A program made the translations under genes and the position numbers. Below are positions 11,013 to 43,672 of a stretch of DNA of 64,000 bases, one piece after another; the stretch's first letter is position 1, and every line of letters starts with the position of its first letter. This DNA is from Thermincola carboxydiphila (GTDB lineage Bacteria; Bacillota; Thermincolia; Thermincolales; UBA2595), in the NCBI GenBank assembly GCA_016841045.1, contig JAENZX010000008.1:62001-126000 (forward strand), written 5' to 3'. Under the pieces are notes generated by a model. The model was not told where the DNA came from, made no database searches, and saw only the letters and a list, made by a program, of their open reading frames with translations.

Positions 11013-11039
11013 TTTTGTTTCATAGGAGGGGCTTTGCGA

Positions 11040-22883: not shown

Positions 22884-22914
22884 AAAGAAACTCAGGCTTA
22901 GCCTGAGTTTCTTT
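22884..22914 (-). terminator. Terminator of the first radical SAM gene
   Basis: 14-bp perfect stem AAAGAAACTCAGGC / GCCTGAGTTTCTTT with a 3-nt loop and an A-run that reads as a T-run on the minus strand. It overlaps the stop codon by 2 nt. Confidence 0.85.
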
Positions 22915-24494: not shown

Positions 24495-24525
24495 TAAGGA
24501 AGCTGTTACAGCTTCCTTAAATTTT
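24495..24525. terminator. Bidirectional terminator between PNPOx-like gene and radical SAM paralogue 2
   Basis: 11-bp perfect stem TAAGGAAGCTG / CAGCTTCCTTA with a 3-nt loop and T-rich tail. Confidence 0.8.
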
Positions 24526-25400
24526 TATAATAATCTTTGGTTTTCACTTTTGAAGATATGTTCTGGGGCAGCCAGAGCCTTGTCAATAAGTGACAGTAAT
24601 CTTTCTTTATCCTGCGGGAGGGTGCCGCCCAAAGGTACATAATTAGAAGCATGATTGGCTCTAAAGATACAATTAGTAAGCTGTAAATTCTCCAGAAGGA
24701 GTTTTGTCTCTGTCAGTACTTCCCGGGGATTTAGCAGGGTGAATTTACCCGATTTCCACTGATCATATAATTCCATTCCTTCTTGCAGGAGAAGCGTTAA
24801 TAGTCCCAGGTATTCAGGGTCCATCACATTTAGTACTTTAGCGGTGTCAAGGGCGTGCTGCCTGAGCTTTTCAGGTCCTCCCAGCCCTGAGATTATCGTA
24901 ATAGACAGGGGTATACCTGCCTTCTTAACTTTTTGTCCTGCTTTAATCATATCCTGAACAGATACGTTTTTCTTAACAGCAGCAAGAATCTCTTCATTTC
25001 CTGATTCGAGGCCGCAATAAATAATTCCCAAACCAGCTTCTTTTAATTGAATTAATTCCTCTTCTGTTTTACGATTGATATCTTTGGCTGAACCATAAAC
25101 ACCAACTCTCTTACATTCCGGAAAAAGAGACTTTATAGTCTGCAATATCACCAATAAATCCCTGGTAGGGACAATGAGTGCATCACCGTCAGCTAAAAAA
25201 AACTTTTCCACATGACTGTAATGAGTTCTTGCTTCCTGTAATTCTTTTATTACTTCATCTAATTTTTTTATTCGGAAAGGTTTATCCCTGTACAGAGCGC
25301 AGAACGTACATTTGTTGTGAGAGCAGCCCATTGTGATTTGAATAATCAGACTATAAGCTTCGCTAGGGGGACGATAAACTGCGCCCTCATATTTTGGCAT
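24525..25400 (-). CDS. Radical SAM protein, paralogue 2
   Basis: 291 residues with the same CSHNKCTFC motif and length as paralogue 1. AAGGAGG precedes the ATG. The N-terminal two thirds differ by roughly a quarter of residues; the C-terminal 94 residues are identical because of a 280-bp identical DNA block (24539-24818). Upstream regions (about 25488-25537 and 23845-23895) are also recognisably related, so the whole transcription unit was duplicated. Confidence 0.85.
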   Translation of the reverse strand: MPKYEGAVYRPPSEAYSLIIQITMGCSHNKCTFCALYRDKPFRIKKLDEVIKELQEARTHYSHVEKFFLADGDALIVPTRDLLVILQTIKSLFPECKRVGVYGSAKDINRKTEEELIQLKEAGLGIIYCGLESGNEEILAAVKKNVSVQDMIKAGQKVKKAGIPLSITIISGLGGPEKLRQHALDTAKVLNVMDPEYLGLLTLLLQEGMELYDQWKSGKFTLLNPREVLTETKLLLENLQLTNCIFRANHASNYVPLGGTLPQDKERLLSLIDKALAAPEHIFKSENQRLL

Positions 25401-26769: not shown

Positions 26770-28017
26770 GTGAAAAAAATCTTAACAATATTTTTTTTTG
26801 TGTTCATCTTGCTTGGTATAAACGGCGATGCATATGGATGGTCTGGTAATGCCAGCAACGATCCCGTCCACAGAGGCAGCCGGACATTTGACCGGGATTC
26901 AACCAATTGTCAGTATTGTCATCCAGCCGGTAATTATCATACATCGGGTCCTCACGGAAACTATACTGCTACTACAGACTTTTGTAAAATTTGCCATCAG
27001 GTGCATAATTCTAAGAACAGATCGCTGTTGAGAATGGGGGCTGAAACAGCAACTGATGTATGTTTATACTGCCATGATTTAACTCAAAGTAAATATGCAC
27101 CCTATAGTTTCTATGACAGTGGGTCTGTAACGGCATCAGTTTATGCTGCTCATCGGGTTCCGGGAATTATTCTTCCACATGACTATGTTAATGCACTTGG
27201 TGAACAGGTAAGTGGAGGCAGGGATTATGTGCTGTCAGGATTTATAGTTCCGGGAGGTTCAGAAACTGATGGCGGATTGGGTTATTTTGATGGATCACGC
27301 CAGGGTAAACTTAGCGGGAATAGCCTCAGTTGTTTTAGCTGTCATTCTGTGCATGCAGTAGCTGGCTCTATGATAAAACCCTATTTGGGTGAGTCACAGA
27401 CTAAGGTAGCCGTAGAAGAATCCGGCCACGAAAAAAAATTATATCTGACCAGCAGGTTGCTGAGAAACCGGCCTGATGTAACAGGAGCTTATGTATATGA
27501 ATATGGGGCCCAATGGTGCATGGCCTGTCACAAGGGAAGAGGCGGTACTCTAATGGTGGGATTTAATCACCCGGTAAATAACGAGGGATATGGGTATGAT
27601 TTTTTGAACAATTTGCAGGAAAGTGAATACGTTTTTCCGGGTGGTAAAGAAGCAGCGCTGTTAGATATTATTGAAAAGAAATATGTTATCGTCGATGACG
27701 GTTTAGAAAATGGCACGATGGAAGGAGCGCATATCAGAAAAGAACCCCGAAATAATGCATGGTATACAATGGTATTAAAGGATGCAATTAGCGGAGCTGA
27801 CCGTCCAGATGGAAATACTACTTATAGTATTGGCGGCCCATCCTGTCAGCAGTGCCACGCCAACCCCAGGGATGTAGAGCGTGCATTTGCTATCGGCGGT
27901 GTTGATGAGAACCCTCTAAGAATGAGTTTTCCGCATGTAAGCAGAAATCAAGGCATGCTAGTAGAGACATTAGATGATTTGTGTACAAATTGTCACGGGT
28001 TAGTCAATTTACCTTAA
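26770..28017 (+). CDS. Secreted seven-haem c-type cytochrome, orphan copy
   Basis: 415 residues from GTG 26770 (GGGGGG upstream). A cleavable signal (about 1-24, ending DAYGWSG) precedes seven CxxCH sites: CQYCH, CKICH, CLYCH, CFSCH, CMACH, CQQCH, CTNCH. It shares with the genes at 33616 and 39093 the features SGPHG, AHRV, PGG, PYLGES, RLL, NHPV, CQQCHANPRDVE-type and the exact C-terminal pattern CTNCHGLxNLP-stop. No membrane anchor beyond the signal. It probably carries electrons outside the membrane. It is more diverged than the other two. Confidence 0.88.
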   Translation: MKKILTIFFFVFILLGINGDAYGWSGNASNDPVHRGSRTFDRDSTNCQYCHPAGNYHTSGPHGNYTATTDFCKICHQVHNSKNRSLLRMGAETATDVCLYCHDLTQSKYAPYSFYDSGSVTASVYAAHRVPGIILPHDYVNALGEQVSGGRDYVLSGFIVPGGSETDGGLGYFDGSRQGKLSGNSLSCFSCHSVHAVAGSMIKPYLGESQTKVAVEESGHEKKLYLTSRLLRNRPDVTGAYVYEYGAQWCMACHKGRGGTLMVGFNHPVNNEGYGYDFLNNLQESEYVFPGGKEAALLDIIEKKYVIVDDGLENGTMEGAHIRKEPRNNAWYTMVLKDAISGADRPDGNTTYSIGGPSCQQCHANPRDVERAFAIGGVDENPLRMSFPHVSRNQGMLVETLDDLCTNCHGLVNLP

Positions 28018-28104
28018 TTACAAAAGTAACAAAGCAGTCTTATGCAGGTCTGCTTTTTTCGAGGGAAGAAAAATAAAAGAACTAAATACCAGCTGGGAGG
28101 AAGT

Positions 28105-29181
28105 ATGATTAATAGAGGTGCTGTTCGGGGGCGAGTAGGCCGCGAATTGTTAAGAATAAGACAGCAGATATCAGAGAGAAAAAAAGATGCATATCTGCCT
28201 CAGCAATCTGATAATTGGGGCAAAGGTTCTAATTTCACAGAAATAAATTTGATATCACAAGATGTGCTTAGAGAGCGTATAAGTGATTTAGAGAAGGAAT
28301 GTGAAGCGCTGCAGTCTGAAGTTAAAGCCGTAAGACAAGCCTTTAAGGAACAAAAAGAAATGACGGAGCAGTTGGAAGTACAGTTGAGGGGACAGATAAG
28401 AGACCTGGAAAGGTCCAAAAAAGAACTGGAGCTTCAAGCTATAGCTGATAAAAAAGCTATTGAGGAGCAAGAGGACCACGCTGAACAGCATGAGAAAAAA
28501 ATTAAAGTTCACCTTAGCGAACTTGAGCAGACTAATAAAAACTTAAAGCTTGAAGTTATTTCAAGCAGACAGGCATATGAAGAACAAAAAGAACGTGCAG
28601 AGTTGGCAAAGAAGCAGCTTAAGGAACAGGTTTATAAGTTGGAAAGGGAAAATAAAGATATCCAACTGAACATCGATACTTTGAGACGCGCCTATGAAGA
28701 ACAAAAAAATAGAGCTGACCGATTGGAGATAGAGCTAAAGGACCACGTAGAAGAATTAGTGCGGGTTAATATGGAGTTAGAACTTCAAGTTAAGGCAGGA
28801 AGGAAGGTATACGAAGAACAAAGACTCCGTGCCGACCGGTTGGAAGTTCAAATGAACGAAGAAATTGAAAAACTAGAAAATATTAATAAAGAATTGAACC
28901 TTCAGATGCAAAATTTTAAAAAATCTCATGCTGAGCAGAAGCAAAGTGTAAAACAAATTGAGGTTCAAGCCAAAGACCAGATTGCTGAGCTTGAAAACGC
29001 CAACAAAGAACTCAAGATTGAAATTAGAGCAGGTAAAAGAGAATTAGAAGAGCAGCGTGAACGCGCTAATAGGCTTGAAATGCAGCTTAAGGAACTGTTT
29101 GCTGCTCTAAATAAAGAAGCCAAAACTCCGGCAGATCTCAAAAAATTCTTAAAAGAAAAAGATTTTACGGTGGTTGGATAA
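28105..29181 (+). CDS. Long coiled-coil protein with 39-residue repeats
   Basis: 358 residues from ATG 28105 (GGGAGGA upstream). After about 70 residues the protein is continuous charged coiled coil built of six full 39-residue repeats plus a partial seventh. Each starts near AYEEQKxRADRLEIQLK and continues to a KELELQ-type end. No signal or membrane helix is visible, so it may be cytoplasmic. It is 87 nt downstream of a seven-haem cytochrome and upstream of two cytochrome cassettes. Function unknown; a structural or spacer role is inferred. Confidence 0.75.
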   Translation: MINRGAVRGRVGRELLRIRQQISERKKDAYLPQQSDNWGKGSNFTEINLISQDVLRERISDLEKECEALQSEVKAVRQAFKEQKEMTEQLEVQLRGQIRDLERSKKELELQAIADKKAIEEQEDHAEQHEKKIKVHLSELEQTNKNLKLEVISSRQAYEEQKERAELAKKQLKEQVYKLERENKDIQLNIDTLRRAYEEQKNRADRLEIELKDHVEELVRVNMELELQVKAGRKVYEEQRLRADRLEVQMNEEIEKLENINKELNLQMQNFKKSHAEQKQSVKQIEVQAKDQIAELENANKELKIEIRAGKRELEEQRERANRLEMQLKELFAALNKEAKTPADLKKFLKEKDFTVVG

Positions 29182-30104: not shown

Positions 30105-31583
30105 ATGGATAATAAGGAAAAGGATATCCAATTAAAAGCAAAAAGAATACTTCAGTTGTTTATTAGCCTTAAATGGAAGAGAATTATTCTTTTGACTGGC
30201 CTTACTGCAGTTATTTTATTTGGTTTGGCTGCAAAGGCTACCCGATATGTTGAGCAACCTGAGTTTTGCAAGAAATGTCATTCTATGAAACCATACTATA
30301 GTTCCTGGGCGGAATCTTCTCATCAAGGCGTATCTTGTTTTGAATGTCATTTTGGATATACCAAGGTAGTTAAGACGAAACCTCTTCCCCTTACCCCTAA
30401 AGATGTCTGGGTCATTAATTTACAGGACCGGACTATTAATGTTTCTAAACAAATGAACACTGTCAAAGGCTTGATGGCCCGTACAAATGTTCAAATCGAC
30501 AATTTTAGAACCAACTTAGTTGAAGTCAGGTCAAAAGTGGCTGATTTAAGAAAAGTTTATATCATGGTTACTGGCGGGTCAACTTCTGGTGACAATGAAG
30601 GCTTTTGGGGAAACTGCATTGAATGTCACAAGGATACTTTTGAAGACAATTCTAAAACTGACAGTTTTGGGCATGTGCCGCACCTTAACAGGGATCTGGC
30701 TTGTAATGACTGTCACCGCAATACGGTTCATGGGAGAATGATAGAACCGTCGCGTCAGGATTGTGTTAGCTGTCACAGTGAAACGATTAGGCCATCTTCT
30801 CATAAGTCCGGACTGTTTAGAGTTACTCACGGTCAAAGTTATTTAAAAGTAGGAGGATGTGAATTATGCCACACTAAGGGACTGGATGAGCCCTTATGCA
30901 CCAATTGCCATGGAATTAAAATGCCGCATAAGCCTGAATATACGATTGATCACATAAAAGACATTAAGCAGGTGGGAATAAAGACATGCATGAACTGCCA
31001 TACCGACGAAGAACAACCGGCATTTGCCGGTGGGGTTTCTCCTAAAGCTGTATCATGTAAAAGCTGTCATGGGCCTGATCTCCCTCATAAAGGATACCAG
31101 TCAATACTCCGCAGTCACGGTTCTCTGGTTGCGCAAAAAGGCACAAAAGGATGTCTAAGCTGCCATGCTTCCAAACAATGTACTGACTGCCATGGTATGG
31201 CAATACCTCATCCCCCGAACTTTATCACAAAGCACATGCCTGAAGCCAAAAAATATGGGTTCGAAAAGTGCCTTAACTGTCATGAAAGGGGCGGCAAAGC
31301 TGTCTACTGTGGTCAGTGTCATGTAGTTGATATTCCACATCAACCGGATTGGAATTGGACCCACGGTACTAAAAAAGACCAAAATTGCAACTACTGTCAT
31401 TCTTCTAAAAATCCGGCCAATCCAGGGGCACCGTGGGCTGTAGAAAATTTTTGTCAAAAGTGTCACGGTATAGAAGAACACTTTAGCAGGCATTGGAATA
31501 TGCCTGAGTACAGTCTTGAGGATTGTTTCAGATGTCACGGAAGTAAGCAGGCCTGCACCACATGTCACAGTATGGAATTATGA
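30105..31583 (+). CDS. Membrane-anchored 17-haem cytochrome with NapC/NirT-like N-terminus, cassette 1
   Basis: 492 residues. One membrane helix (about 26-44) is followed by two haem sites in a NapC/NrfH-like setting (CKKCHSMKPYYSSW, residues 55-59, then GVSCFECH at 78-82). Residues 83-170 carry no haem and look helical or coiled. Fifteen further CxxCH follow in about 320 residues, 17 in all. NapC/NirT-type proteins oxidise menaquinol, and normally have only four haems. So this looks like a quinol-oxidising anchor fused to a long haem wire reaching through the wall. The paralogue is at 35300-36880. Confidence 0.88.
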   Translation: MDNKEKDIQLKAKRILQLFISLKWKRIILLTGLTAVILFGLAAKATRYVEQPEFCKKCHSMKPYYSSWAESSHQGVSCFECHFGYTKVVKTKPLPLTPKDVWVINLQDRTINVSKQMNTVKGLMARTNVQIDNFRTNLVEVRSKVADLRKVYIMVTGGSTSGDNEGFWGNCIECHKDTFEDNSKTDSFGHVPHLNRDLACNDCHRNTVHGRMIEPSRQDCVSCHSETIRPSSHKSGLFRVTHGQSYLKVGGCELCHTKGLDEPLCTNCHGIKMPHKPEYTIDHIKDIKQVGIKTCMNCHTDEEQPAFAGGVSPKAVSCKSCHGPDLPHKGYQSILRSHGSLVAQKGTKGCLSCHASKQCTDCHGMAIPHPPNFITKHMPEAKKYGFEKCLNCHERGGKAVYCGQCHVVDIPHQPDWNWTHGTKKDQNCNYCHSSKNPANPGAPWAVENFCQKCHGIEEHFSRHWNMPEYSLEDCFRCHGSKQACTTCHSMEL

Positions 31584-31733
31584 AATACTTGAAATTATTG
31601 AGATTATATACGAATTAGTTCAAGATATTTAAATAAAGCACGATATTTTAAAGTAGGATGAATATCCCTAGGTTGCTATTAATAACCATTATTGATTATA
31701 ATTTAAAGTAATCAAGCTTGCTTAGAGTTTTTT

Positions 31734-31762
31734 TTCACTTAAATGGTTATTCATGGTATAAT
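31734..31762 (+). promoter_or_regulatory. Candidate promoter for the TPR-NHL-cytochrome genes of cassette 1
   Basis: An extended -10 TGGTATAAT (TATAAT at 31757-31762) lies 17 bp after a weak TTCACT box, in the 223-nt gap after the 17-haem gene and 44 nt before the TPR start. It suggests that the three downstream genes can be transcribed separately. Confidence 0.5.
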
Positions 31763-31806
31763 AAAAAATATGGATAATTATATAAATTATAAAAGAAGTG
31801 GTCAGA

Positions 31807-32466
31807 ATGGGCGAAACTGGTGTCAAAGTTACTTCAAATCAGAAAGTTACTTCAAATAAGAAGTTTATTTCCGGCTCTCAATTGGTCTTGATATTATTGA
31901 TTTTAGTGAGTATAATGACTGTCCTGACTTTTAAGAAATTTCTTGACGTAGGGATGGTTATGTCACCATCTGAGGCAGAAATAAAAAAGTTAACAAAAAT
32001 CGTTAACAAAAACCCTAATTCATTGGATTTAAGGTTAAAGCTGGCTTATTCATTCCAAAAAGCGAAACGATATGACGAGGCAATAACTCAATATAATGAG
32101 GTGCTCAATGTCGATAATGGGAATCAGGGGGCCTTGTATAACCTGGCAGTTATTGCCCGTGAGCAGAGGGAGTTTGATGAGGCGTTGAGGCTGCTATCGA
32201 CCCTTATTGCACAAAACCCGGGACATATTTTGGGTTCTATTGAACTTGGGGATATGTATCTGCAAAAGCATGAATATGATGAAGCTATAAGAGTCGTAGA
32301 TGCGGGTATTAAAAACAGACCCAGTGTTATTGAACTGCATTACATTAAAGCAAGGGCCCTTGAGGGTAAAGAAGAATATAATGCTGCAGTGGCTGAATAC
32401 CGGGAAGTGTTGAGATATTTTCCCGACCATAAAAAGGCTCTTGAAGCGATACGAAGAATTTACTAA
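31807..32466 (+). CDS. Membrane-anchored TPR protein, cassette 1
   Basis: 219 residues from ATG 31807. One membrane helix (about 23-41) then an outward-facing domain of four to five tetratricopeptide repeats, e.g. AKRYDEAITQYNEVLNVD, REFDEALRLLSTLIAQNPGH and HEYDEAIRVVDAGIKNRP. TPRs bind protein partners; anchored TPR proteins assist cytochrome c maturation or assembly in several systems. Position between the 17-haem and NHL genes suggests an assembly or scaffold role. Paralogue at 37310-37933. Confidence 0.85.
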   Translation: MGETGVKVTSNQKVTSNKKFISGSQLVLILLILVSIMTVLTFKKFLDVGMVMSPSEAEIKKLTKIVNKNPNSLDLRLKLAYSFQKAKRYDEAITQYNEVLNVDNGNQGALYNLAVIAREQREFDEALRLLSTLIAQNPGHILGSIELGDMYLQKHEYDEAIRVVDAGIKNRPSVIELHYIKARALEGKEEYNAAVAEYREVLRYFPDHKKALEAIRRIY

Positions 32467-32487
32467 CCTTTTGAAAGGAAACTTATT

Positions 32488-33582
32488 GTGGATAGGGAGA
32501 ACTCTAAAAACCTGACCCGTGTCTTGGTTGCAGTGCTTCTGGTACTTCTGTGTATTCTCCTGTACACATATTTCGTAGTTCTGGAATCAGGCGGGGGCAT
32601 AGTATCTACAACAAAGAAAAAGGTAGGTAAAATAGAATTTCTATTTGGAATTTATGGCCCGGGGAGGGGTGAATACCCCGAGTTTAATATGCCTATGTCA
32701 GTTGACACTGATAAAGATAATAATATCTACATAACTGATTCAGGACATAACAGGGTTTGTGTGTTTGACAATAATGGTGAATTTTTATTTGAATTCGGTG
32801 AGAAGGGGGTAGCCCACCCTATACCTGGTGATAAGGCAAACTGGAAGCCGGGTACGTTTAGTTATCCGTATGGAATTGCCATAGATGATGAAACTGGGAA
32901 TATTTTTGTCGCAGACATGGTAAATGAACGGATTCAGGTTTTTGACTACGGAGGAAGATTTCTGGATTGGTTCCCTAAAGAACCTTATGGAGGTACTGCT
33001 TCTAACATTTTCCCAACGGACATTGCGGTGAAAAATGGCAAGGTATATGTCTGCAGCTCTTATCAGGTAGTCATCTTTACTACCGGAGGCAAATATGTAA
33101 CTGATTTCGGGATGCCTGGTACTGGAGTAGGACAGTTAAACAGACCTAACGGTATTGATGTTGGCGAAGATGGAACTATTTATGTTGCTGATTCTAACAA
33201 CTTACGGCTGCAGGCGTTTACTGAACGGGGAAAAGTGAAGTGGGTAGTGGGTAAACCGACTGCTGTAGGGGCAGGAATAGAGCGGGAAAAAGACAGAGTT
33301 TTCGGACTGCCTCGAAATGTTGCTGTCGGACCTGACGGAAACATATATGTAGCGGATGCGTTCCATTTTCAGATAAAGGTTTTTTCTCCGGAAGGTAAGC
33401 AGCTGGCTGCTATGGGCAAACGGGGAATTGGTGATGGGGAGTTTAATTTTAATAACGGGATATCGATCACCAACGACGGAATTATTTATATTGTTGATAA
33501 ACAGCCGGGACGTGTCCAGGCTATACGTTTTTCGGGTTTTTGGATGGAGGATTCGCTGGAAGATTCCTTAGAGGACAATTGA
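32488..33582 (+). CDS. Membrane-anchored NHL-repeat beta-propeller, cassette 1
   Basis: 364 residues from GTG 32488 (AAAGGA upstream). An N-terminal anchor (about 9-30) is followed by six NHL repeats forming a predicted six-bladed propeller outside the membrane: PMSVDTDKDNNIYITDSGHN, YGIAIDDETGNIFVADMVNE, NGIDVGEDGTIYVADSNN and RNVAVGPDGNIYVADAFHF among them. No catalytic motif is evident, so binding or scaffolding is more likely. It sits 21 nt from the TPR gene and 33 nt before the seven-haem gene. Paralogue at 37953-39032. Confidence 0.87.
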   Translation: MDRENSKNLTRVLVAVLLVLLCILLYTYFVVLESGGGIVSTTKKKVGKIEFLFGIYGPGRGEYPEFNMPMSVDTDKDNNIYITDSGHNRVCVFDNNGEFLFEFGEKGVAHPIPGDKANWKPGTFSYPYGIAIDDETGNIFVADMVNERIQVFDYGGRFLDWFPKEPYGGTASNIFPTDIAVKNGKVYVCSSYQVVIFTTGGKYVTDFGMPGTGVGQLNRPNGIDVGEDGTIYVADSNNLRLQAFTERGKVKWVVGKPTAVGAGIEREKDRVFGLPRNVAVGPDGNIYVADAFHFQIKVFSPEGKQLAAMGKRGIGDGEFNFNNGISITNDGIIYIVDKQPGRVQAIRFSGFWMEDSLEDSLEDN

Positions 33583-33615
33583 TATGAGGAAAGTAAGATA
33601 GGGGAGATGGTAAGT

Positions 33616-34974
33616 ATGTACAAATGGTTTTTGAAGGGGTGCCTGATTATTGTAATAATACTAACAATGGCCCCGGCTGCTTTTGCTGTTCATAGTTTAG
33701 ATGATGCCGTTGAACAGACTGTTCGTACAGGCTGGGATAAAGCTATGGCCCAAGAGGACGGCAAGAAGTGTACATATTGCCATTCAACTCAACCCGAACA
33801 TACTTCAGGCCCTCATGGTGGATATCAGTCAACAACTGATAAATGTGTTGCCTGTCATACTGTGCACAAGGCTCAAAACGAATCACTTCTTCCTGGTAAA
33901 ACCGTTGCCGAGACGTGCAACTTCTGTCATGATCTTACTCAGTCAGAGGTTGCGCCATACTATACTGACTACATGACTACAGAGAGTGAAGTTAAATCTG
34001 CCCATCGGGTTGACGGTCTGGCCGTAAAGTCCAAGACTAACAACTGGGTCGGAGAAGTATGGGAAGGAAGTCTTATTATTCCTGGTGGAGATCCAATAAC
34101 AGGCGATTCGGCAACTTTAAATACAACACACCAGGGGACAGTATCAAAAAATAACTTTACCTGTGACAGCTGCCATACTCCACATGCTATAGATGATTCA
34201 ACCGTTGAACCATATCTTGGCGAATCTCAATTGAAGTTTGAAATTGCCGACAATGCAATCCCCAGTGCTGCTAACGGTAATGCAGGGAGATTTTGGATAA
34301 CTGACAGACTTCTTAAGGCAAGATTAAACGGAGTAAGTGGTTTTGTATATACAAAATATAATTCAGACTGGTGTGCGGCCTGTCACCAGGGAAGGTTTGA
34401 CGATGACGGGTCTCAGATTCATAACCACCCTGTTGCCATGAACTCTCAGGCTGAAAATACTGCCGAAAGAGAAAACGCCATGGGATACCAGTTTCTTGAT
34501 TTCCTTGCACCGGAAGATTTTGATGCATATCTTAATAAAGAATCACTGATTGCTGCCGCTAAAGATGAAAATGGTATCTACAGAACATTTTACTGGGCTA
34601 CCCCTGAAGCATATTCTGCCATGGGAAATACCATTGATTATACTGTTGGTGCAAAACATGTTACCGGAGTCCGCACCATTAAGAAGGATCCCCGCACGAA
34701 TAAACAATATTCAATGACGGCAGGTGATCCACTAAATAGTAATCAAGCCAGGCCCGATGGTCATGTGCCAATAACTGAATATCCTAAAGGTCCTGCCTGT
34801 CAGCAATGCCATGGAAACCCGAGAAATGTTGAAGAGACTTTCCTGGCGTCCCTTGAAGTAAGTAACGGAAAGAGAGTTATGAGCTTCCCGCATGTCAGCA
34901 TGAATGAAAACTTAACTGTGGAGAATAATGACGATTTTTGTACCAACTGTCATGGTCTTGAAAACTTACCATAA
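33616..34974 (+). CDS. Secreted seven-haem c-type cytochrome, cassette 1
   Basis: 452 residues from ATG 33616, 9 nt after GGGGAG; ATG 33607 is too close to it. A signal peptide ends at about APAAFAVHS. Seven CxxCH motifs: CTYCH, CVACH, CNFCH, CDSCH, CAACH, CQQCH, CTNCH. The spacing is paired at both ends (YCH...ACH; QQCH...TNCH) with long haem-free stretches between, and single His residues such as GPHGGY, NHPV and FPHVS as candidate distal ligands. The C-terminus is CTNCHGLENLP. Likely the extracellular carrier of the cassette. Confidence 0.88.
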   Translation: MYKWFLKGCLIIVIILTMAPAAFAVHSLDDAVEQTVRTGWDKAMAQEDGKKCTYCHSTQPEHTSGPHGGYQSTTDKCVACHTVHKAQNESLLPGKTVAETCNFCHDLTQSEVAPYYTDYMTTESEVKSAHRVDGLAVKSKTNNWVGEVWEGSLIIPGGDPITGDSATLNTTHQGTVSKNNFTCDSCHTPHAIDDSTVEPYLGESQLKFEIADNAIPSAANGNAGRFWITDRLLKARLNGVSGFVYTKYNSDWCAACHQGRFDDDGSQIHNHPVAMNSQAENTAERENAMGYQFLDFLAPEDFDAYLNKESLIAAAKDENGIYRTFYWATPEAYSAMGNTIDYTVGAKHVTGVRTIKKDPRTNKQYSMTAGDPLNSNQARPDGHVPITEYPKGPACQQCHGNPRNVEETFLASLEVSNGKRVMSFPHVSMNENLTVENNDDFCTNCHGLENLP

Positions 34975-34999
34975 ATAAGGTCTAACATGTTATCAAATG

Positions 35000-35036
35000 G
35001 GAGTGAGCCTAAATGAATTTTGGCTCACTCCTTTTC
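35000..35036 (+). terminator. Terminator of cytochrome cassette 1
   Basis: 10-bp stem GGAGTGAGCC / GGCTCACTCC with a 12-nt loop and TTTT. The remaining 34975-35299 gap shows no gene; it holds only this hairpin and AT-rich sequence. Confidence 0.8.
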
Positions 35037-35299
35037 TGTTATTCTTTGGAGCCCGGCAGAAAAAATATGTTCGAAATAAAAAAAGACTATTGAACATGAT
35101 AGATCAAACAATTAAGCTTAAAGTAGGTTATTGCTTATAGGTACTACTCAAGGGTCAAGTGAGTTGTGGGTAGTGAGTAGTATAGGATTAAGCCAATAAT
35201 TAACAGCGATTAGAGTATAAGTTTTTACGATAAATAAAAGGGAAATAGCCTCTTTATGCTGAAATTTATTCTAGTAAATGCTGTAGGGGTGTAAAAAAT

Positions 35300-36880
35300 A
35301 TGGACAGTAACCATAAACAGGAAAAGAATCATGATAAAACATCCCTTAAGATAGGGATTGGCAAGTCCAAAAATGTTAAGAAGATTTTCCTGATTGTTGG
35401 TGTAGTTCTTTTTATTTTCTTTCTGTTGACTCTAAAGGCAACGACTTACATAGAAAACCCGGACTTATGCAAGCGATGTCATTCAATGAAGTTTTATTAC
35501 AATACATGGACGGAATCATCTCATAGTAAGATTGGGTGTTATGACTGTCATTTTGGATTCACTCCTGTAGCAAAACAAGAGTCTATCCCTGTGACAACCA
35601 GGCAATACTGGAACATAGAAATTGGGAAAGAAACTATTAATGTATCAGATACTATGAATCGCATAAAAGACACGATTATTAAGATAAACACCCAGATTAA
35701 TAACTTTAATGCCAGAGTTAGTGAAATAAACTCAAAGGCCTCTGATCTGGGGAAGGTGTACGAAATTGCTCTAGGGGATTCGACTTCCGATGAAAATCCG
35801 GACTTTTGGGCCAACTGTCTGAAATGTCACAAAGATTTGTTATCCCAAAATTCCAAAGTTGACAATTACGGCCACAGTCAACATTTTAATAAGGGGCTTG
35901 CCTGTAACCAGTGTCATCGTGTTGTTGTTCACGGTCGACCGCTCAAACCTACACGTCAGGAATGTGTTCAGTGTCACAATAAACCATTAACTTGGCCGAG
36001 CTCCCATCAGGAAAGCTCTTTTCCGGTTACACATGGACAAAGCTATACAGGCAGCTGCACTTTATGTCACGAAAAAGGTGTAAAGAGCGATTTGTGTCAG
36101 AACTGTCACGGCATTGATATGCCTCATACTGAGGGTTACACAATGTATCATATTAAAGAAATAAACCAAGTGGGAATTGATACCTGCCTAAAATGTCACC
36201 AAGATCCTCCCCAAAAAAATGGTAGTACCGGTATTGCCAATCCCTATGTTGTTAGAAATCCAAACTTTAAGCCAAAGGTTAAAACTGATAGCAAACCTGA
36301 AATCAAACCACTTGCAAAGGCAATGTCCTGCAATGAATGTCACGGACCGGGGCTGCCACATAGGGGATACCAGAAGATTCTTCGGACTCACGGTACTCTT
36401 GCGATGGAAAAAGGGACCAAAGGGTGTTTGAGCTGCCACCAATCCAAGAAATGTACTGATTGTCACGGCATGACAATACCTCATCCCAATGGATTTATAC
36501 AACAACATCCCTCAGTTGCAAAAAGCTCAAACACGGATAAGTGCCTGCAGTGTCACAAGGACTATAATAAAGATGCGAAAGCAAAGTCCTGCAACAGCTG
36601 TCATACAGTACAAATGCCCCACCCTGAAAACTGGAATAACGACCATGGTAATTTTAAAGACGCGAACTGCAGCTACTGCCATTCATCCAAAAATCCGGTT
36701 AATCCAAAAGCTTCCTATGCGAGAGATAACTTCTGTCAAAAGTGCCATGACGTAAAGCCACATCGTGATATTCATTCACAGCCTGAAAAGTGGCCGTGGA
36801 CAGAAAAACAATGTTACTCATGTCATGATGGGGGAAAAGGTTGTGCCACCTGTCACCAGAGAAATGGCGGAGTGGAGTGA
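35300..36880 (+). CDS. Membrane-anchored 17-haem cytochrome with NapC/NirT-like N-terminus, cassette 2
   Basis: 526 residues with the same plan as the gene at 30105: anchor at about 29-45, NapC-like haem pair (CKRCHSMKFYYNTW, GCYDCH), an 85-90-residue haem-free helical insert and then 15 more CxxCH, 17 in total. It carries an extra 30-residue Lys/Pro-rich linker (about 305-340) between haems 8 and 9 that the first copy lacks. Haem order and the surrounding His residues are otherwise collinear, so duplication of a full-length gene is clear. Confidence 0.88.
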   Translation: MDSNHKQEKNHDKTSLKIGIGKSKNVKKIFLIVGVVLFIFFLLTLKATTYIENPDLCKRCHSMKFYYNTWTESSHSKIGCYDCHFGFTPVAKQESIPVTTRQYWNIEIGKETINVSDTMNRIKDTIIKINTQINNFNARVSEINSKASDLGKVYEIALGDSTSDENPDFWANCLKCHKDLLSQNSKVDNYGHSQHFNKGLACNQCHRVVVHGRPLKPTRQECVQCHNKPLTWPSSHQESSFPVTHGQSYTGSCTLCHEKGVKSDLCQNCHGIDMPHTEGYTMYHIKEINQVGIDTCLKCHQDPPQKNGSTGIANPYVVRNPNFKPKVKTDSKPEIKPLAKAMSCNECHGPGLPHRGYQKILRTHGTLAMEKGTKGCLSCHQSKKCTDCHGMTIPHPNGFIQQHPSVAKSSNTDKCLQCHKDYNKDAKAKSCNSCHTVQMPHPENWNNDHGNFKDANCSYCHSSKNPVNPKASYARDNFCQKCHDVKPHRDIHSQPEKWPWTEKQCYSCHDGGKGCATCHQRNGGVE

Positions 36881-37309
36881 CGATGTATTAGAAAGTAATG
36901 TTTCAAAGGGATAATCAGTCATCTGGAGTGCGATAAAAAAAAGTTATGAAGATATTCGAAAAAAAGAAGGAAGAGGAAGGAGGTTTGGCGAACTAAATAA
37001 ATACAGTAACAAAGTAATGTGCTAAACTACCAAGTAAATACATATCAAATTAGTGAATCGAGAGGGGATTACTAATACTTTTAAATACTTCAAAAAAAAA
37101 TAAAAAATGATTTATTTGCAGAAGGAAATTTGAAAAACATATAGAATTAATAATATAGAAAATAGTAATTGAGGATATAAAATGAACAAATGCCTTAGTT
37201 TACTAGTGCAAAAAGTTTAAGGCTGCTCAAGAAAGTGAATACAGGAACAAAGCGTAATACATTAGAAATCTTGCAAATATCTTAGTAAATAATGATAGGA
37301 GTGAATGAG
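36881..37309 (+). other. 429-nt A-rich intergenic leader in cassette 2
   Basis: No protein gene of normal size is visible between the 17-haem and TPR genes. The stretch is A-rich and purine-rich on the plus strand and contains a possible 12-codon leader (37182-37220). In cassette 1 the same interval is only 223 nt and not evidently similar. Confidence 0.5.
37182..37220 (+). CDS. Possible 12-residue leader peptide
   Basis: ATG 37182 follows GAGG at 7-nt spacing and reads MNKCLSLLVQKV before TAA. It lies 90 nt before the TPR gene in a long leader. Coding status is unproved; chance ORFs of this size are common. Confidence 0.2.
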   Translation: MNKCLSLLVQKV

Positions 37310-37933
37310 TTGTCCGTCACAAAGGCAAAAAAAGGGTCTCTAAACTCTACGATAATCATTATACTGCTTATAGCGATAGTGGTAATGGGTCTCCTGACAG
37401 GGAAGAGATTTTTGGAAGCATCAAGAGTTGATCCGGTTGACAATGAAATAGAAAACCTAACAGAAATTGTAAATGAAAACCCCGAAAATTTAGAGGCGAG
37501 AATTGCACTGGCATATACTTATCAAAAGCAAAAAGAGTGGGATCAGGCTCGGGAAATTTATGAGGATGTTCTTAGAGTAGACAGTGCCAATCAGGCGGCT
37601 ATGTATAACCTGGCGGTTATAGCTCTGGATAACAAACAGTATGATGATGCCGAAAAGAAATTTAAAGAGCTGCTGACAAAATACCCCGACCATCTTCTGG
37701 GCCTGCAGGCTATGGGTGAGATTTATCTGGAACAGAAAAAGCCAGACCTGGCAATCCAGTATGTTGATAAGGCCATTAAATTCAGGCCTGACATAATTGA
37801 TTTCCATTTTGTAAAGGCAGCGGCTTATGAGGCAAAGGGAGACAAGGCTAAGGCCAAAGCAGAGTATCAGGTGATTTTAAAATATGTTCCCGAGAATCCA
37901 AGAGCAACTGAAGCACTTTCAAAACTCAAGTAG
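37310..37933 (+). CDS. Membrane-anchored TPR protein, cassette 2
   Basis: 207 residues from TTG 37310, chosen because AGGAG (37297-37301) overlaps the alternative ATG/GTG starts. One membrane helix at about 11-27 (STIIIILLIAIVVMGLL) precedes TPR units such as KEWDQAREIYEDVLRVDSAN, KQYDDAEKKFKELLTKYPDH and KKPDLAIQYVDKAIKFRPDI. Collinear with the cassette 1 TPR protein including the conserved start of the outer domain (EIENLTEIVNENPENLEARI). Confidence 0.85.
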   Translation: MSVTKAKKGSLNSTIIIILLIAIVVMGLLTGKRFLEASRVDPVDNEIENLTEIVNENPENLEARIALAYTYQKQKEWDQAREIYEDVLRVDSANQAAMYNLAVIALDNKQYDDAEKKFKELLTKYPDHLLGLQAMGEIYLEQKKPDLAIQYVDKAIKFRPDIIDFHFVKAAAYEAKGDKAKAKAEYQVILKYVPENPRATEALSKLK

Positions 37934-37952
37934 CTAGGAAAGGAAGAAGAGT

Positions 37953-39032
37953 ATGAAGAACAAGAAGAAGACGATTTTCCGTGCAACTGTCATAGTACTT
38001 ATTCTGATTCTGGCAGTATTGGCGTACATGTATTTTGTAATGCTGAAGTCCGGTGGGGGGATAGTTTCGGCAAAAAAGAAAACTGTTGGGAAGGTTGAGT
38101 TCCTATTTGCCATATACGGCCCGGGCAGGGGAGAAAACCCGCGGTTCAACAAACCGATGTCTGTTGCCACTGATAACGAGAACCGTATTTATGTAGCTGA
38201 CTCTATGAATAACAGGATTGCAGTATTTGACAGCAACGGGGATTTCTTGTTTGAATTCGGGAAAAAAGGTGTGGCACATCCCCTTGGTGGTTCAAAGGCG
38301 ACATGGAAACCAGGAACCTTTAGTTACCCATACGGAATAGATGTCGATAAAGAAACAGGTAATATATTTGTAGCTGACATGGTAAACAAAAGAATTCAGA
38401 TTTTTGATAATGGAGGTAAGTTTATAGACTGGTTCCCCAAAAAGGACTTTGGCGGCTGGGCTTCTGATATATACCCTACAGATATTGCTGTGGAAAAAGG
38501 CAAGGTATATATAAACAACCCTTATCAAATAGTAGTTTTCACGACTAAAGGCGAGTTTGTAAAAGAAATTGGAATGCCTGGTGATACCCCGGGTAATTTT
38601 AACAGACCTAATGGTATAGATGTGGGTGAAGATGGAACAATCTATGTTTCTGATTCCAACAACATGCGCTTACAGGCCTTAACTCCAGAAGGCAAAGTTA
38701 AATGGGTTATTGGTAAACCAGCAGAGAATGGTGCAGGCATCCAACGTGAAAAAAGTGTTTTTGGAAATCCAAGAAACGTTTCTGTAGGTCCTGATGGTAA
38801 TATTTATGTGATTGACCCATTCCACTTCCAGATCAAGGTATTTGCGCCAGACGGCAAGCAGCTTGCTGCTATGGGCAAACAGGGTAGAGAAGAAGGATAC
38901 TTTAACTTCCCTAATGGAATTGAAGTTACAAAAGATAAAATCATATATGTAGTAGACAAAGAAGGCAGCAGAGTACAGGCTGTTAAACTGACCGAATTTG
39001 TTATGGAAGACCCTCTGAAAATGGAACAGTGA
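37953..39032 (+). CDS. Membrane-anchored NHL-repeat beta-propeller, cassette 2
   Basis: 359 residues. Anchor at about 9-28 and then six NHL repeats, with YGPGRGENPRFNKPMSVATD, YGIDVDKETGNIFVADMVNK, NGIDVGEDGTIYVSDSNN and RNVSVGPDGNIYVIDPFHF. It is closely related to the cassette 1 copy along its whole length, including the motif SGGGIVS straight after the membrane helix. 19 nt separate it from the TPR gene. Confidence 0.87.
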   Translation: MKNKKKTIFRATVIVLILILAVLAYMYFVMLKSGGGIVSAKKKTVGKVEFLFAIYGPGRGENPRFNKPMSVATDNENRIYVADSMNNRIAVFDSNGDFLFEFGKKGVAHPLGGSKATWKPGTFSYPYGIDVDKETGNIFVADMVNKRIQIFDNGGKFIDWFPKKDFGGWASDIYPTDIAVEKGKVYINNPYQIVVFTTKGEFVKEIGMPGDTPGNFNRPNGIDVGEDGTIYVSDSNNMRLQALTPEGKVKWVIGKPAENGAGIQREKSVFGNPRNVSVGPDGNIYVIDPFHFQIKVFAPDGKQLAAMGKQGREEGYFNFPNGIEVTKDKIIYVVDKEGSRVQAVKLTEFVMEDPLKMEQ

Positions 39033-39092
39033 TTTTTACCGGCATAGCCGGTGAAGATAAGAGAATCGCAGCGAAAGGAGGTGAAACAAATA

Positions 39093-40436
39093 ATGCGTAA
39101 ATTAGGTTTAGCTTTTCTGTTGGCTCTTTGCATGGTAACTCTAGTAGCTACTGTTGCATTAGCAGCACACAGTGACAGGGCTGAATTGGGTGTATCTGGT
39201 CAGGTTGGCGGTGACGCTGAGACTTCCTCTGGTGGTCTTAACTGCTCATACTGCCACGAAGCTCAGACCAAGCACACCTCCGGTCCTCACGGTGGATACC
39301 AGACTACTACCAACAGGTGTCTGACTTGCCACGGTCTTCACGCCAATGCTAATAGCGGTAACGTGAAAGCCTGGACAGACCGATTACTCCCTGGTACAGA
39401 TCTTCAAGCAGTATGTAACTACTGCCATGACCTTACCCAGAGTAACCTTGGTCCTTACTACACCAGCTTTATGGCAGGTGAAGGTAAAGTAGTTAAGTCT
39501 GCTCACAGAGTAACCGGTATCGTTTACTCCGACAATGAAGGTAGTAAAACCATGAACATGGATACCCTCATTATCCCTGGTGGTAGCTATGTAACTGGTG
39601 GTGCTGCAAACCTGGAAACAGGTAACCAAGGTATGACTTCAGGTAATGCTTTTACCTGTAACAGTTGCCACACTCCTCACGCTGTTAAGGGTTCAACTGT
39701 AGATCCTTACTTTGGTGAGTCTCACCGTCTGTTCAGTGAAGCTACTGACGAAGTAGGTGAAACTGTTTACAGAGTTTACCTTACTGACAGGCTGCTTAAA
39801 GCAAGGCTGCAGGATCCTAACAGAACGAGAACTGTAACTGACAGAGTTTATACCAAGTATAACTCTGACTGGTGTGCAGGCTGTCACCAAGGTCGTTATG
39901 ACAGCGCTGAAGCTGAAGGTTCCGGTACTGTCCACAACCACCCGGTTGCTATGGGCGATGCCAACCCGAAAGCCGATGGTTACAAGTACCTCCAGTATAC
40001 CAACTTCATCAACGGCTACACTGCTGATTCTTTAATCGCAGAGATAGTTGCTGGTAGAGATGCTGGTACATACCCGAATGTCTTCATTGACCCACTGGGT
40101 CGTGCAGAAATCTCTGGTACATCACATGGTACTCCATGGACCAAAACTCCGTTCGCTGATAATGATGGCCGCAGCAACAAGCAGTACACCATGACTTCTA
40201 CTGACCCGATTTCAGGAGATGCTCGTCCTGATGGTTACGAGGTAATCGATGACTACAGAGGCGGTCCTTCCTGTCAGCAGTGTCACGGTAGTGCTCGTGA
40301 AGTTGAGGCTGCATTCCACGGCGCTGGTGAACCAGAAGCACAAACATTCCCTCACGTAAGCGAGAACAAGTACTTGCTGGTTGAGGAGAACGACGACTTC
40401 TGTACCAACTGTCACGGTCTTGACAACCTGCCCTAA
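39093..40436 (+). CDS. Secreted seven-haem c-type cytochrome, cassette 2, probably highly expressed
   Basis: 447 residues from ATG 39093 behind AAAGGAGGTGA, the strongest ribosome-binding site in this cluster. Signal peptide ends at about TVALAAHS. Seven CxxCH: CSYCH, CLTCH, CNYCH, CNSCH, CAGCH, CQQCH, CTNCH; C-terminus CTNCHGLDNLP. Unlike its paralogues it uses mostly C-ending Tyr, His, Asn and Phe codons and GGT/GCT/GTT, a bias typical of very highly expressed genes. It is thus the likely bulk extracellular cytochrome of this strain. Confidence 0.88.
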   Translation: MRKLGLAFLLALCMVTLVATVALAAHSDRAELGVSGQVGGDAETSSGGLNCSYCHEAQTKHTSGPHGGYQTTTNRCLTCHGLHANANSGNVKAWTDRLLPGTDLQAVCNYCHDLTQSNLGPYYTSFMAGEGKVVKSAHRVTGIVYSDNEGSKTMNMDTLIIPGGSYVTGGAANLETGNQGMTSGNAFTCNSCHTPHAVKGSTVDPYFGESHRLFSEATDEVGETVYRVYLTDRLLKARLQDPNRTRTVTDRVYTKYNSDWCAGCHQGRYDSAEAEGSGTVHNHPVAMGDANPKADGYKYLQYTNFINGYTADSLIAEIVAGRDAGTYPNVFIDPLGRAEISGTSHGTPWTKTPFADNDGRSNKQYTMTSTDPISGDARPDGYEVIDDYRGGPSCQQCHGSAREVEAAFHGAGEPEAQTFPHVSENKYLLVEENDDFCTNCHGLDNLP

Positions 40437-40825: not shown

Positions 40826-41320
40826 CTAATCCTTCTTATCTTTTGATAAGTGTGCTTTTTCAAATATGTCTGGACTTATTTCCTTTTTACCTGAATCAGA
40901 AATATTGATTGCATAAATAAACCAGTTACCATTAGTTCCTCTTCTCAAGTCAATATCCATTGGAAGATTTCTTTTACTTGTTATAATATTTGTTTTAATA
41001 ATTGCTTGTCCATTCAGATCATCAAGATAAATATCTTTTTCCGAGAAGGTCCACTTTTTAATGGCTCCCACTTGTTGTTCGAAGTTACTGAAGAACTGTT
41101 TCATTTGCGGGTCTATAGTAAAACCCCGGCGCATAGTGTAACTGATAGTTCCGTAAATCTTGTTGGAATCCTTATCTCTTATGCCCTCTAGATAAGTAGA
41201 AATAATTTTTTTCTGTAACGTAACATCTGGTGCCTTCTTAGCAGAAGAAGTATTACAGCCGGTAAATATAAACAGGGACATGAGAAAAAGGAACAATGCA
41301 GCCAAATGTTTCTTCAACAT
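40826..41320 (-). CDS. Lipoprotein, NTF2-like/DUF4878-like
   Basis: 164 residues. A lipoprotein signal ends IFTGCN. The mature part starts with KIISTYLEGIRDKDSNKIYG, a pattern of small NTF2-like outer domains, and ends with a DLRRGTNGNWFIYAI strand. It is paralogous to the gene at 43119-43550, which has TYLEGFRDRKPEKIYN and DVRRIGDRWYVHGL at the same places. Function unknown. Confidence 0.7.
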   Translation of the reverse strand: MLKKHLAALFLFLMSLFIFTGCNTSSAKKAPDVTLQKKIISTYLEGIRDKDSNKIYGTISYTMRRGFTIDPQMKQFFSNFEQQVGAIKKWTFSEKDIYLDDLNGQAIIKTNIITSKRNLPMDIDLRRGTNGNWFIYAINISDSGKKEISPDIFEKAHLSKDKKD

Positions 41321-41520: not shown

Positions 41521-43029
41521 TTGAAGGTAACTAAGAATAACAATATCAAAAGCCAGGGCATTGATTTATGGGTCTTATATGTATTCTCGATATTATGCGG
41601 AGCAGTTCTGATGGCAGTTGAAATAGTTGGTGGCAGACTGCTGTCACCATACTTTGGCAGTTCGGTATATGTTTGGGGCAGTATAATTTCAGTATTTTTA
41701 ATAGCGCTGAGCGCCGGATACTATCTTGGGGGGATAGTTGCAGATAAAAAACCGAGTATAGTTTTGCTTGCTGGATTTATATCTGTTTCTGGGCTTCTTA
41801 TATTGATGATACCACTATTAGTTTTGCCCTTGGTAAGAGTAGCCTTCAATGCTGGTCTAGGTAATTATGGCGCCCTTGTTGTGTCACTTTTGTTATTTTT
41901 TCTACCCAGTTTGGGCTTGGGTATGGTTTCCCCCTATGTTGTAAAGCTGGGCATGAAGGAAGCTGACCGCCTTGGTAACCTTGTTGGCGGGTTTTATGCC
42001 ATTTCCACTTTTGGCAGCATCATAGGTACTTTTTTGACCACTTTTGTTCTTATTCCGATCTTTGGTGTAAGAGAAATACTTATTGCATCAGGAATACTGT
42101 TGGTTGTGATATCACTAATCGTACTTTTGAGTCAGCGGTTTCTCCTGGAAGGGGCAATAGTAATGTTTCTTCTTACTGTTAGTTTGATAGTTACGTATTT
42201 TTTGATTCCGGGGACTGCTGAGAGTTACCAAGGGAAAGAAGTGCTGTACAGTAGGGAAACTTTGTATAACAATTTAGCTGTTGTTGACAATAATCAGGGT
42301 TACAGGTATTTGATGTTTAATGAAACACAACAAACGGCCATGAATAAAAAAGCTCCCAATGACCATGTCTGGCCATATACAGCGGTTATGAGTGCAGCAG
42401 CTAATTTTTACGCCCCTGATGGAAAAAGTGTTTTGCAGATTGGTCTGGGCGGTGGGACAATTCCCAAATATACACTGGCTTATCGGCCAGATGTACATAC
42501 CGATGTAGTGGAAATAGATCCTGAGGTAATAAAGACTGCTCAGAAGTATTTTTCTGTACCGGAAACACCGAAACTAGATCTATATGCGGAAGATGGGCGC
42601 ATGTTTTTGCGGGATAAAAAGAATGAGTATGATGTAATTATGGTTGATGCATACAACAGATTAAGTATTCCTTTTCACTTGACCACTAAGGAATTTTTTG
42701 ATCAACTGGGAGCAGCATTGAAACCAGGCGGAGTGGTAATTTTCAATGTGGTCAGCAGTATTGAGGGTGAATACAGCCCTTTTTTTAAAAGCCTGCTTCA
42801 TACAGCGGAACAGGTTTTCCCCAACAGAAGGCTGTTTCAGACTGAAGCAACAAAGCCTACTGACCTTGATAATTTAATCCTGGTGGTATCAAAAGAACAA
42901 TTGGAGCCAGCACAAAGGCTAGCCGGACGCCCCGAATATACCGGCCAAATAGATGTAAGTGATTCGATAATTCTTACAGATAATTATGCTCCTGTTGAAA
43001 ACTTAGCAGTAAGCATTATGACTAAATAA
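41521..43029 (+). CDS. Spermidine synthase-like protein fused to an MFS-like membrane domain
   Basis: 502 residues from TTG 41521. Six to seven membrane helices occupy residues 1-235 (start of the first: LWVLYVFSILCGAVLMAVEI). The C-terminal half is a Rossmann methyltransferase-like domain with VLQIGLGGGTIPKY, VVEIDPEVIKTA and the DAYNR loop where SpeE has its DSxD motif. Such fused proteins are widespread; whether they make polyamines is unproved. Two related lipoprotein genes flank it on the opposite strand. Confidence 0.85.
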   Translation: MKVTKNNNIKSQGIDLWVLYVFSILCGAVLMAVEIVGGRLLSPYFGSSVYVWGSIISVFLIALSAGYYLGGIVADKKPSIVLLAGFISVSGLLILMIPLLVLPLVRVAFNAGLGNYGALVVSLLLFFLPSLGLGMVSPYVVKLGMKEADRLGNLVGGFYAISTFGSIIGTFLTTFVLIPIFGVREILIASGILLVVISLIVLLSQRFLLEGAIVMFLLTVSLIVTYFLIPGTAESYQGKEVLYSRETLYNNLAVVDNNQGYRYLMFNETQQTAMNKKAPNDHVWPYTAVMSAAANFYAPDGKSVLQIGLGGGTIPKYTLAYRPDVHTDVVEIDPEVIKTAQKYFSVPETPKLDLYAEDGRMFLRDKKNEYDVIMVDAYNRLSIPFHLTTKEFFDQLGAALKPGGVVIFNVVSSIEGEYSPFFKSLLHTAEQVFPNRRLFQTEATKPTDLDNLILVVSKEQLEPAQRLAGRPEYTGQIDVSDSIILTDNYAPVENLAVSIMTK

Positions 43030-43118: not shown

Positions 43119-43550
43119 CTATTTAGAACTATTTTTATTTGTTGATTGCTTCTGCTTGAGACCATGTACATACCACCTGTCACCAATTCGTCTGACATCG
43201 AATTCAAAAATAAATGTCTGCGTGGAAGTTTTCACCAGGGTCTCTATTATGGCCTGATTATTAACCTCGTCAATATAAGAGTCTCCTACAAAATTCCACC
43301 CGGTAATCTTGCCAAACTGGTGATCCTGTGCCCGAAAGAGTCCTTCCAGTTTACCGGGAAATCGGAGTTGTTGGTAAGCTTCAAAGGATATGGTATTATA
43401 AATCTTCTCCGGTTTTCTATCTCTAAAGCCCTCAAGATAGGTATTTATAATTTCTTTAGGCGGCCCGTCGTTAACTTTTGGTTTACCGCATCCAGTGATA
43501 ACGGATATAGTAATTAGCCCTATTAATAAAAAAACAATTCTTTTTTTCAT
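43119..43550 (-). CDS. Lipoprotein, paralogue of the gene at 40826
   Basis: 143 residues from ATG 43550 (AAGGATGG upstream; the longer frame to 43601 is rejected). The signal ends SVITGCG. The mature domain aligns end to end with the 40826-41320 product, with the shared TYLEG-RD, KIY-TIS, NQAIIET/NGQAIIKT and W-V/F-Y segments. Function unknown. Confidence 0.7.
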   Translation of the reverse strand: MKKRIVFLLIGLITISVITGCGKPKVNDGPPKEIINTYLEGFRDRKPEKIYNTISFEAYQQLRFPGKLEGLFRAQDHQFGKITGWNFVGDSYIDEVNNQAIIETLVKTSTQTFIFEFDVRRIGDRWYVHGLKQKQSTNKNSSK

Positions 43551-43672
43551 TGAATATCCATCCTTTTTTAAAAGTTCTGCAAAAACTATGTACAAGTTCA
43601 TTATACAGCCCTGCTGTTTTTATCACAATAGAAATGACCAGTTTATTCTTATAGATAATTCAGAGAAGGTGC

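Follow-up and report, generated by a model that had tools for sequence, protein, structure and literature searches.

Two collinear copies of a four-gene cassette in Thermincola carboxydiphila join an NrfH-like 17-haem cytochrome, anchored TPR and NHL proteins and an OmcS/CwcA-like secreted cytochrome

The window analysed here, a 64,000-nucleotide stretch of the Thermincola carboxydiphila genome (4.16 Mb, 75 contigs), contains two collinear copies of a cassette that encodes a 17-haem quinol-type cytochrome, a TPR protein, an NHL propeller and a secreted seven-haem cytochrome. This cassette is probably (at roughly 60%) an extracellular electron transfer (EET) module of the Thermincola type, in which the TPR-NHL pair would assemble or anchor a wire of the OmcS family leading from the quinol dehydrogenase through the cell wall. 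Cytochrome nanowires carry electrons out of cells. In several families of the phylum the genes for OmcS-like cytochromes have an anchored propeller directly upstream, usually together with an anchored TPR protein, and these two proteins thereby become concrete candidates for assembly or anchoring. Such candidates matter most for Gram-positive bacteria, where the proteins that assemble and anchor wires are being sought.

Open reading frames were taken as simple longest-ORF calls. All eight cassette genes are found on one strand (+) and in identical order in both copies, and the coordinates and haem counts agree with those given by the sequence-only reading, which had described the copies at 30105-34974 and 35300-40436. 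The cassettes and their flanks comprise the following features:

26770..28017, + strand: third seven-haem homologue, 415 aa, 35-38% identical, with no TPR or NHL gene directly 5'
28042..29181, + strand: coiled-coil ORF lying 3' of the third seven-haem gene and 5' of cassette A, of uncertain membership in the system
30105..31583, + strand: cytA, 492 aa, 17 CXXCH, N-terminal anchor, quinol dehydrogenase domain of NapC/NirT-NrfH type followed by di-haem repeat units
31798..32466, + strand: tprA, membrane-anchored TPR protein, 222 aa
32488..33582, + strand: nhlA, membrane-anchored NHL propeller, 364 aa
33607..34974, + strand: mhA, secreted seven-haem cytochrome with an OmcS/CwcA-like core and one extra N-terminal haem
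35300..36880, + strand: cytB, 17-haem quinol-type cytochrome, copy 2, 526 aa
37292..37933, + strand: tprB, anchored TPR protein, copy 2, 213 aa
37953..39032, + strand: nhlB, anchored NHL propeller, copy 2, 359 aa
39051..40436, + strand: mhB, secreted seven-haem cytochrome, copy 2, 461 aa
40454..40477, + strand: strong terminator-like stem-loop (10 pairs, T tail) directly 3' of the second cassette
41521..43029, + strand: spermidine-synthase-like gene, membrane-fused, flanking the cassette

The 17-haem, TPR and NHL proteins each have one N-terminal hydrophobic segment, in agreement with the membrane anchors assigned earlier to the first three products, and the seven-haem proteins have a signal peptide. 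Within 30105-40436 the + strand contains no terminator comparable to the one that follows the second cassette. The coiled-coil ORF encodes 379 aa and contains repeated blocks. A gene similar to the spermidine-synthase-like one lies directly upstream of the related cassette (15-haem, TPR, NHL and two seven-haem genes) in four relatives, and its presence therefore marks synteny rather than function. Small lipoproteins are encoded on the opposite strand at 40826-41320 and 43119-43601 (-), and similar ORFs, with homology judged by eye, follow the cassette in L044-L047. Further away in the window, two radical-SAM-like paralogues (22913-23788 and 24525-25400, both -) have near-identical C-terminal halves and different N-terminal halves, as after gene conversion, and two adjoining genes at 9141-12242 encode large proteins with cell-wall-binding-like repeats.

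All four products are paralogous between the copies, as had been proposed. BLASTP identity of copy A with copy B is 48% over 522 columns for the 17-haem cytochrome, 43% over 183 for the TPR protein, 67% over 356 for the NHL protein and 44% over 477 for the seven-haem cytochrome. The CXXCH counts (copy A/copy B) are 17/17 and 7/7 for the quinol-type and the secreted cytochrome, respectively, and four adjacent gene pairs with E values from 1e-50 to 0 place the paralogy beyond chance. Since the copies are merely 43-67% identical, a recent duplication or an assembly artefact is rejected. In each of the four gene trees copy A groups with copy B as its sister, with ultrafast bootstrap values of 100 (17-haem), 90 (TPR), 80 (NHL) and 94 (seven-haem), on branches that are long and with a long-branch warning for the seven-haem tree. 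We read the four trees as the result of a single old duplication of the whole block, within this lineage. In five relatives (G001, G004, G005, G006 and G009) the homologous set is present once and comprises a 15-haem cytochrome and two seven-haem genes, of which the second has no NHL gene of its own, leaving one NHL for the two. The two copies of the window probably make two wires of different properties, and may be put to different use.

NrfH is a menaquinol dehydrogenase subunit, and it is also the best PDB match of the large cytochrome. A profile of the 17/15-haem family finds NrfH first in the PDB (E=1.3e-11), followed by NrfB (E=0.026), and Pfam PF03264 (NapC/NirT) matches the two copies with 33.3 and 25.7 bits (cut-off 24.1), so that the earlier assignment of this protein to the quinol type is upheld. 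The NrfH match spans the anchor and the first two haems, and M63 of the CXXCHxM motif is invariant in 7 sequences. The protein thus resembles NrfH and the NapC/NirT family in its anchor, its CXXCHxM first haem and its PDB and Pfam matches, but these relatives have 4 haems, whereas the window cytochrome reaches 17 by means of repeated di-haem units. These units, C-x2-CH-x4-PH...H...C-x2-CH, make up the remainder of the protein, and a simple pattern for them is matched four times in copy A and five times in copy B. Invariant alignment columns suggest that the window copies carry two more haems than their relatives, around C415 and C431 of copy B. Judged by its family, the 17-haem protein most likely oxidises menaquinol.

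NrfH being the quinol dehydrogenase of a nitrite reductase, and multihaem families overlapping as they do, the cassette might instead serve a soluble or periplasmic respiration, such as nitrite, sulfite or arsenate reduction, with its multihaem proteins as ordinary carriers. This is very improbable, as the window ORF list contains no NrfA-like reductase in or beside the cassette, the secreted cytochrome has extracellular filament proteins as its best profile matches, and paralogues occur in known or proposed EET loci. A nitrite reductase operon is likewise rejected, there being no NrfA.

The filament proteins in question are OmcS and OmcE. Searched against 177,635 PDB sequences, the profile of the seven-haem family ranks OmcS at the top (E=1.2e-4) and OmcE next (E=0.02), and two related six-haem families located 3' of NHL genes also find OmcS first (E=6.7e-14 and 7.7e-5). 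For the seven-haem profile, the match to OmcS is of modest strength and lies mainly over three haems. The 17-haem profile, used as a control, does not pick up OmcS in the PDB, and the match is therefore not explained by CXXCH motifs alone. The seven-haem and the six-haem CwcA-type families align with each other with an hhalign match of 99.7%. Because it has seven CXXCH motifs and CwcA six haems, the protein is CwcA-like, not CwcA. It shares with OmcS and OmcE, the cytochromes of Geobacter nanowires, the CXXCHxxH of the first core haem and the CXXCHxPH of the third, besides the best profile matches; it differs in having one more N-terminal haem and a Gram-positive wall to cross instead of an outer membrane, and its polymerisation is one that we infer. 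Among plasmid records, NHL matches are generic propellers and the seven-haem protein is without any match. In other classes, 10-12-haem proteins (L125, L129, L130, L134 and L137) match the six-haem OmcS-like profile as if they were tandem duplicates, and have no NHL neighbour.

Six histidines outside the CXXCH motifs (80, 97, 152, 210, 297 and 435 in mhB numbering) are invariant in 14 of 14 seven-haem proteins, in an order that largely parallels the CwcA-type family, and a seventh is found at H40 or H75. In four paralogues the only further histidine is H40, near the mature N-terminus, leaving exactly seven for seven haems. H97 of mhB aligns with residue 16 of the OmcS chain, which we take to be the inter-subunit ligand of haem 5. 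In the OmcS filament, one of the twelve haem ligands, on haem 5, is supplied by the neighbouring molecule (PMC6584659).

Alternatively, the seven-haem protein may be a soluble or wall-bound shuttle, or a terminal reductase, that never polymerises, its likeness to OmcS reflecting shared ancestry of haem modules only. The number of haems, seven and not six, would suit such a protein, as would the modest E value over mainly three haems and an AlphaFold model that is unusable. Mean pLDDT is 35 for the seven-haem protein (7 sequences) and 33 for the 17-haem protein (4 sequences), and these low values leave the stacking without geometric support. We nevertheless hold this alternative to be unlikely, since the PDB search puts OmcS and OmcE in the first two places, the six distal histidines largely follow the order of the CwcA-type family, and the same type of locus holds CwcA itself, a proposed wall wire. 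A conduit across the Gram-positive wall, as put forward by the sequence-only reading, stays the likeliest interpretation because the seven-haem protein is OmcS/CwcA-like. That conduit had also been called self-contained, which goes too far: the cassette has no surface reductase, and the known Thermincola pathway additionally uses PdcA and OcwA (PMC7911101).

The two NHL proteins of the window match PF01436 with 108.7 and 112.4 bits over four repeats (cut-off 20), and N-terminal anchors are present in 109 of 111 NHL and in all 74 TPR proteins. The host order is represented by ten genomes, the source genome included, and the count from the NHL side covers 72 NHL genes in ten genomes (nine in the class, one outside). 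The next gene on the same strand encodes at least five haems in 59/72 cases (39 with six, 8 with seven), and a TPR gene lies directly 5' in 48/72; several of the exceptions are at contig ends. As these loci were chosen through NHL, the test was repeated from the cytochrome side and outside the class. The six-haem profile has matches in 30 of 398 genomes of the phylum, and 40 regions from genomes of other classes were counted, for OmcS-like genes that encode five to eight haems. NHL is found directly upstream of 27/41 OmcS-like genes, preceded by TPR in 20 of these 27. In the same regions, NHL lies directly upstream of 10/325 other genes (Fisher p=1e-22) and of 6/54 other multihaem genes (p=5e-8); these p values overstate the contrast somewhat, because the regions are not fully independent and include close relatives among the genomes. 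OmcS itself is produced in Geobacter, where an adjoining NHL gene could not be shown for it, GSU2505 being listed as hypothetical in one paper, and this counts against the pairing.

The sequence-only reading had treated an occurrence of TPR and NHL genes beside such cytochromes in this genome alone as an outcome that would count against it. The set recurs in the same order in the five relatives named above and in many more diverged paralogous clusters of the class, and the neighbour counts from both sides support the TPR-NHL pair as a fixed part of the system. It is also found apart from the quinol dehydrogenase: contig 30 of the same genome (G000, L048 7990-13158) has a TPR-NHL-seven-haem cassette with no NapC-type gene. 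Two proteins of twin-arginine type (RRDF), one with two CXXCH and the other with three, follow this cassette. In related loci (L057, L061, L076, L100 and others) very large cytochromes of 14 to 42 CXXCH stand at the end of the cluster, downstream of NHL-cytochrome pairs. Outside the class, 14/41 OmcS-like genes are without NHL directly upstream. Since the third seven-haem gene of the window and the second one of the five relatives have no NHL of their own, one-to-one pairing is a tendency and not a law.

Within the pairs, NHL goes with the cytochrome and TPR is common to several of them, as indicated by TPR-(NHL-cyt)2-3 arrays in 8 loci, in which a single TPR gene precedes two or three NHL-cytochrome pairs with one NHL per cytochrome. 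Across 47 NHL proteins, the distances between them correlate with those between the cognate cytochromes at r=0.83, while permutation of the cytochromes among paralogues of the same genome gives a mean of 0.03 and a maximum of 0.23 (0/2000 reach 0.83). The corresponding correlations are 0.91 for TPR-NHL and 0.89 for TPR-cytochrome, meaning that the modules have been co-inherited through many duplications. Linkage and co-inheritance demonstrate a common history of the modules, not that the proteins touch.

NHL and TPR folds are promiscuous, and two accounts of the pair, apart from a general assembling or anchoring function, have to be weighed. The more specific one makes NHL and TPR the dedicated biogenesis machinery of OmcS-family wires, in which each cytochrome has a cognate propeller that would nucleate or register the polymer at the membrane and the shared TPR protein would recruit; we put it forward tentatively. 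The other assigns to them an electron-handover scaffold or a wall or glycan anchor, the propeller binding peptidoglycan or a surface glycan and holding the finished cytochrome. NHL propellers are general binding modules with relatives that include TRIM-NHL and teneurin, almost all NHL and TPR proteins keep a permanent membrane anchor, and the pairing data suit an anchor as well as a chaperone. Even so, Pfam matches no wall-binding domain in the window proteins, and one TPR common to several NHL-cytochrome pairs is better suited to a shared recruiting step, so that this second account is rather unlikely. The structural sleeve that had been suggested for TPR and NHL is not supported, and a chaperone role for them is one that we infer.

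In the assembling or anchoring module that we favour, the 17-haem NrfH-like protein would take electrons from menaquinol, and its di-haem repeats would lead them away from the face of the membrane. Owing to its relation to OmcS and CwcA, the secreted seven-haem cytochrome would stack into a short wire across the cell wall, in which one haem of each subunit would receive a histidine ligand from the following subunit; H97 of mhB is a candidate for this histidine. Because of the pairing rule and the anchors, the NHL propeller, with the shared TPR protein, may form a cognate assembly or anchoring platform on the outer membrane face, which would hold, nucleate or register the wire against the quinol dehydrogenase.

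Several known systems share parts of this composition. Porin-cytochrome conduits (MtrCAB, Pcc) have a gene for an outer-membrane porin, whereas none is recognised beside the cassette in the ORF lists of the window or of the relatives, and a porin-cytochrome complex is rejected on this ground. Association of NHL or TPR with multihaem cytochromes is already known: NHL proteins accompany an OmcE homologue in Geoalkalibacter (PMC12016550) and are present in cytochrome clusters of Desulfovibrio ferrophilus (PMC9769857). Among Gram-negative systems, NHL lies beside extracellular cytochromes in the Uet pathway (PMC10734462), and a beta-propeller gene adjoins a 26/16-haem operon in SEEP-SRB (PMC12246660); these clusters include a prolyl isomerase and, in Uet, a porin, and the accessible parts of both accounts report no TPR-NHL-OmcS order. 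NHL and TPR genes are also found among the multihaem genes of the Dethiobacter alkaliphilus EET clusters, where an assembly role has been suggested, in an account whose accessible part does not tie NHL to an OmcS-like gene or examine its recurrence (PMC10376724). A tie of NHL/TPR to OmcS-family cytochromes, with its gene order and co-inheritance, was not found described in the literature searched, a set that most subscription papers fall outside.

The closest known system is that of Thermincola itself. In T. ferriacetica, ImdcA (Tfer_0070) has the N-terminus GIRD, and CwcA (Tfer_0075), which has six haems and has been modelled on OmcS, is a proposed wall-crossing protein (PMC7911101). In one relative (G005, L084), a ten-haem gene encoding MGIRDKFKF is followed by 12-haem, 17-haem, TPR, NHL and six-haem genes. 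The six-haem gene comes five genes after the GIRD gene, just as Tfer_0075 does after Tfer_0070, so TPR and NHL would likewise precede CwcA; the spacing of the genes, together with the ImdcA N-terminus, points to Tfer_0073 as the TPR gene and Tfer_0074 as the NHL gene. A locus of this type is also present in the source genome (contig 28, L073). Expressed without its neighbours, CwcA is insoluble in E. coli, which its authors ascribe to wall insertion and a tendency to polymerise (PMC7911101). This behaviour is compatible with a need for partners and also with the authors' reading, and it makes a cheap test of the NHL/TPR role possible.

The view that no named system has this composition thus stands in part. 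The ImdcA-CwcA locus (Tfer_0070-0075 / TherJR_1117-1122) appears to belong to the same cassette type, having membrane multihaem cytochromes followed by TPR, NHL and an OmcS-like secreted cytochrome in the same order, and the seven-haem gene of the window has the position of CwcA, directly after TPR-NHL in an electron transfer locus; NHL and TPR together had, moreover, been noted in Dethiobacter. By contrast, the haem set and the duplication distinguish the window from that locus: in the ImdcA-CwcA locus TPR-NHL comes after 10-, 12- and 17-haem genes and before the six-haem CwcA, whereas in the window it stands between a single 17-haem NrfH-like gene and a gene for a seven-haem protein, and the whole set is duplicated.
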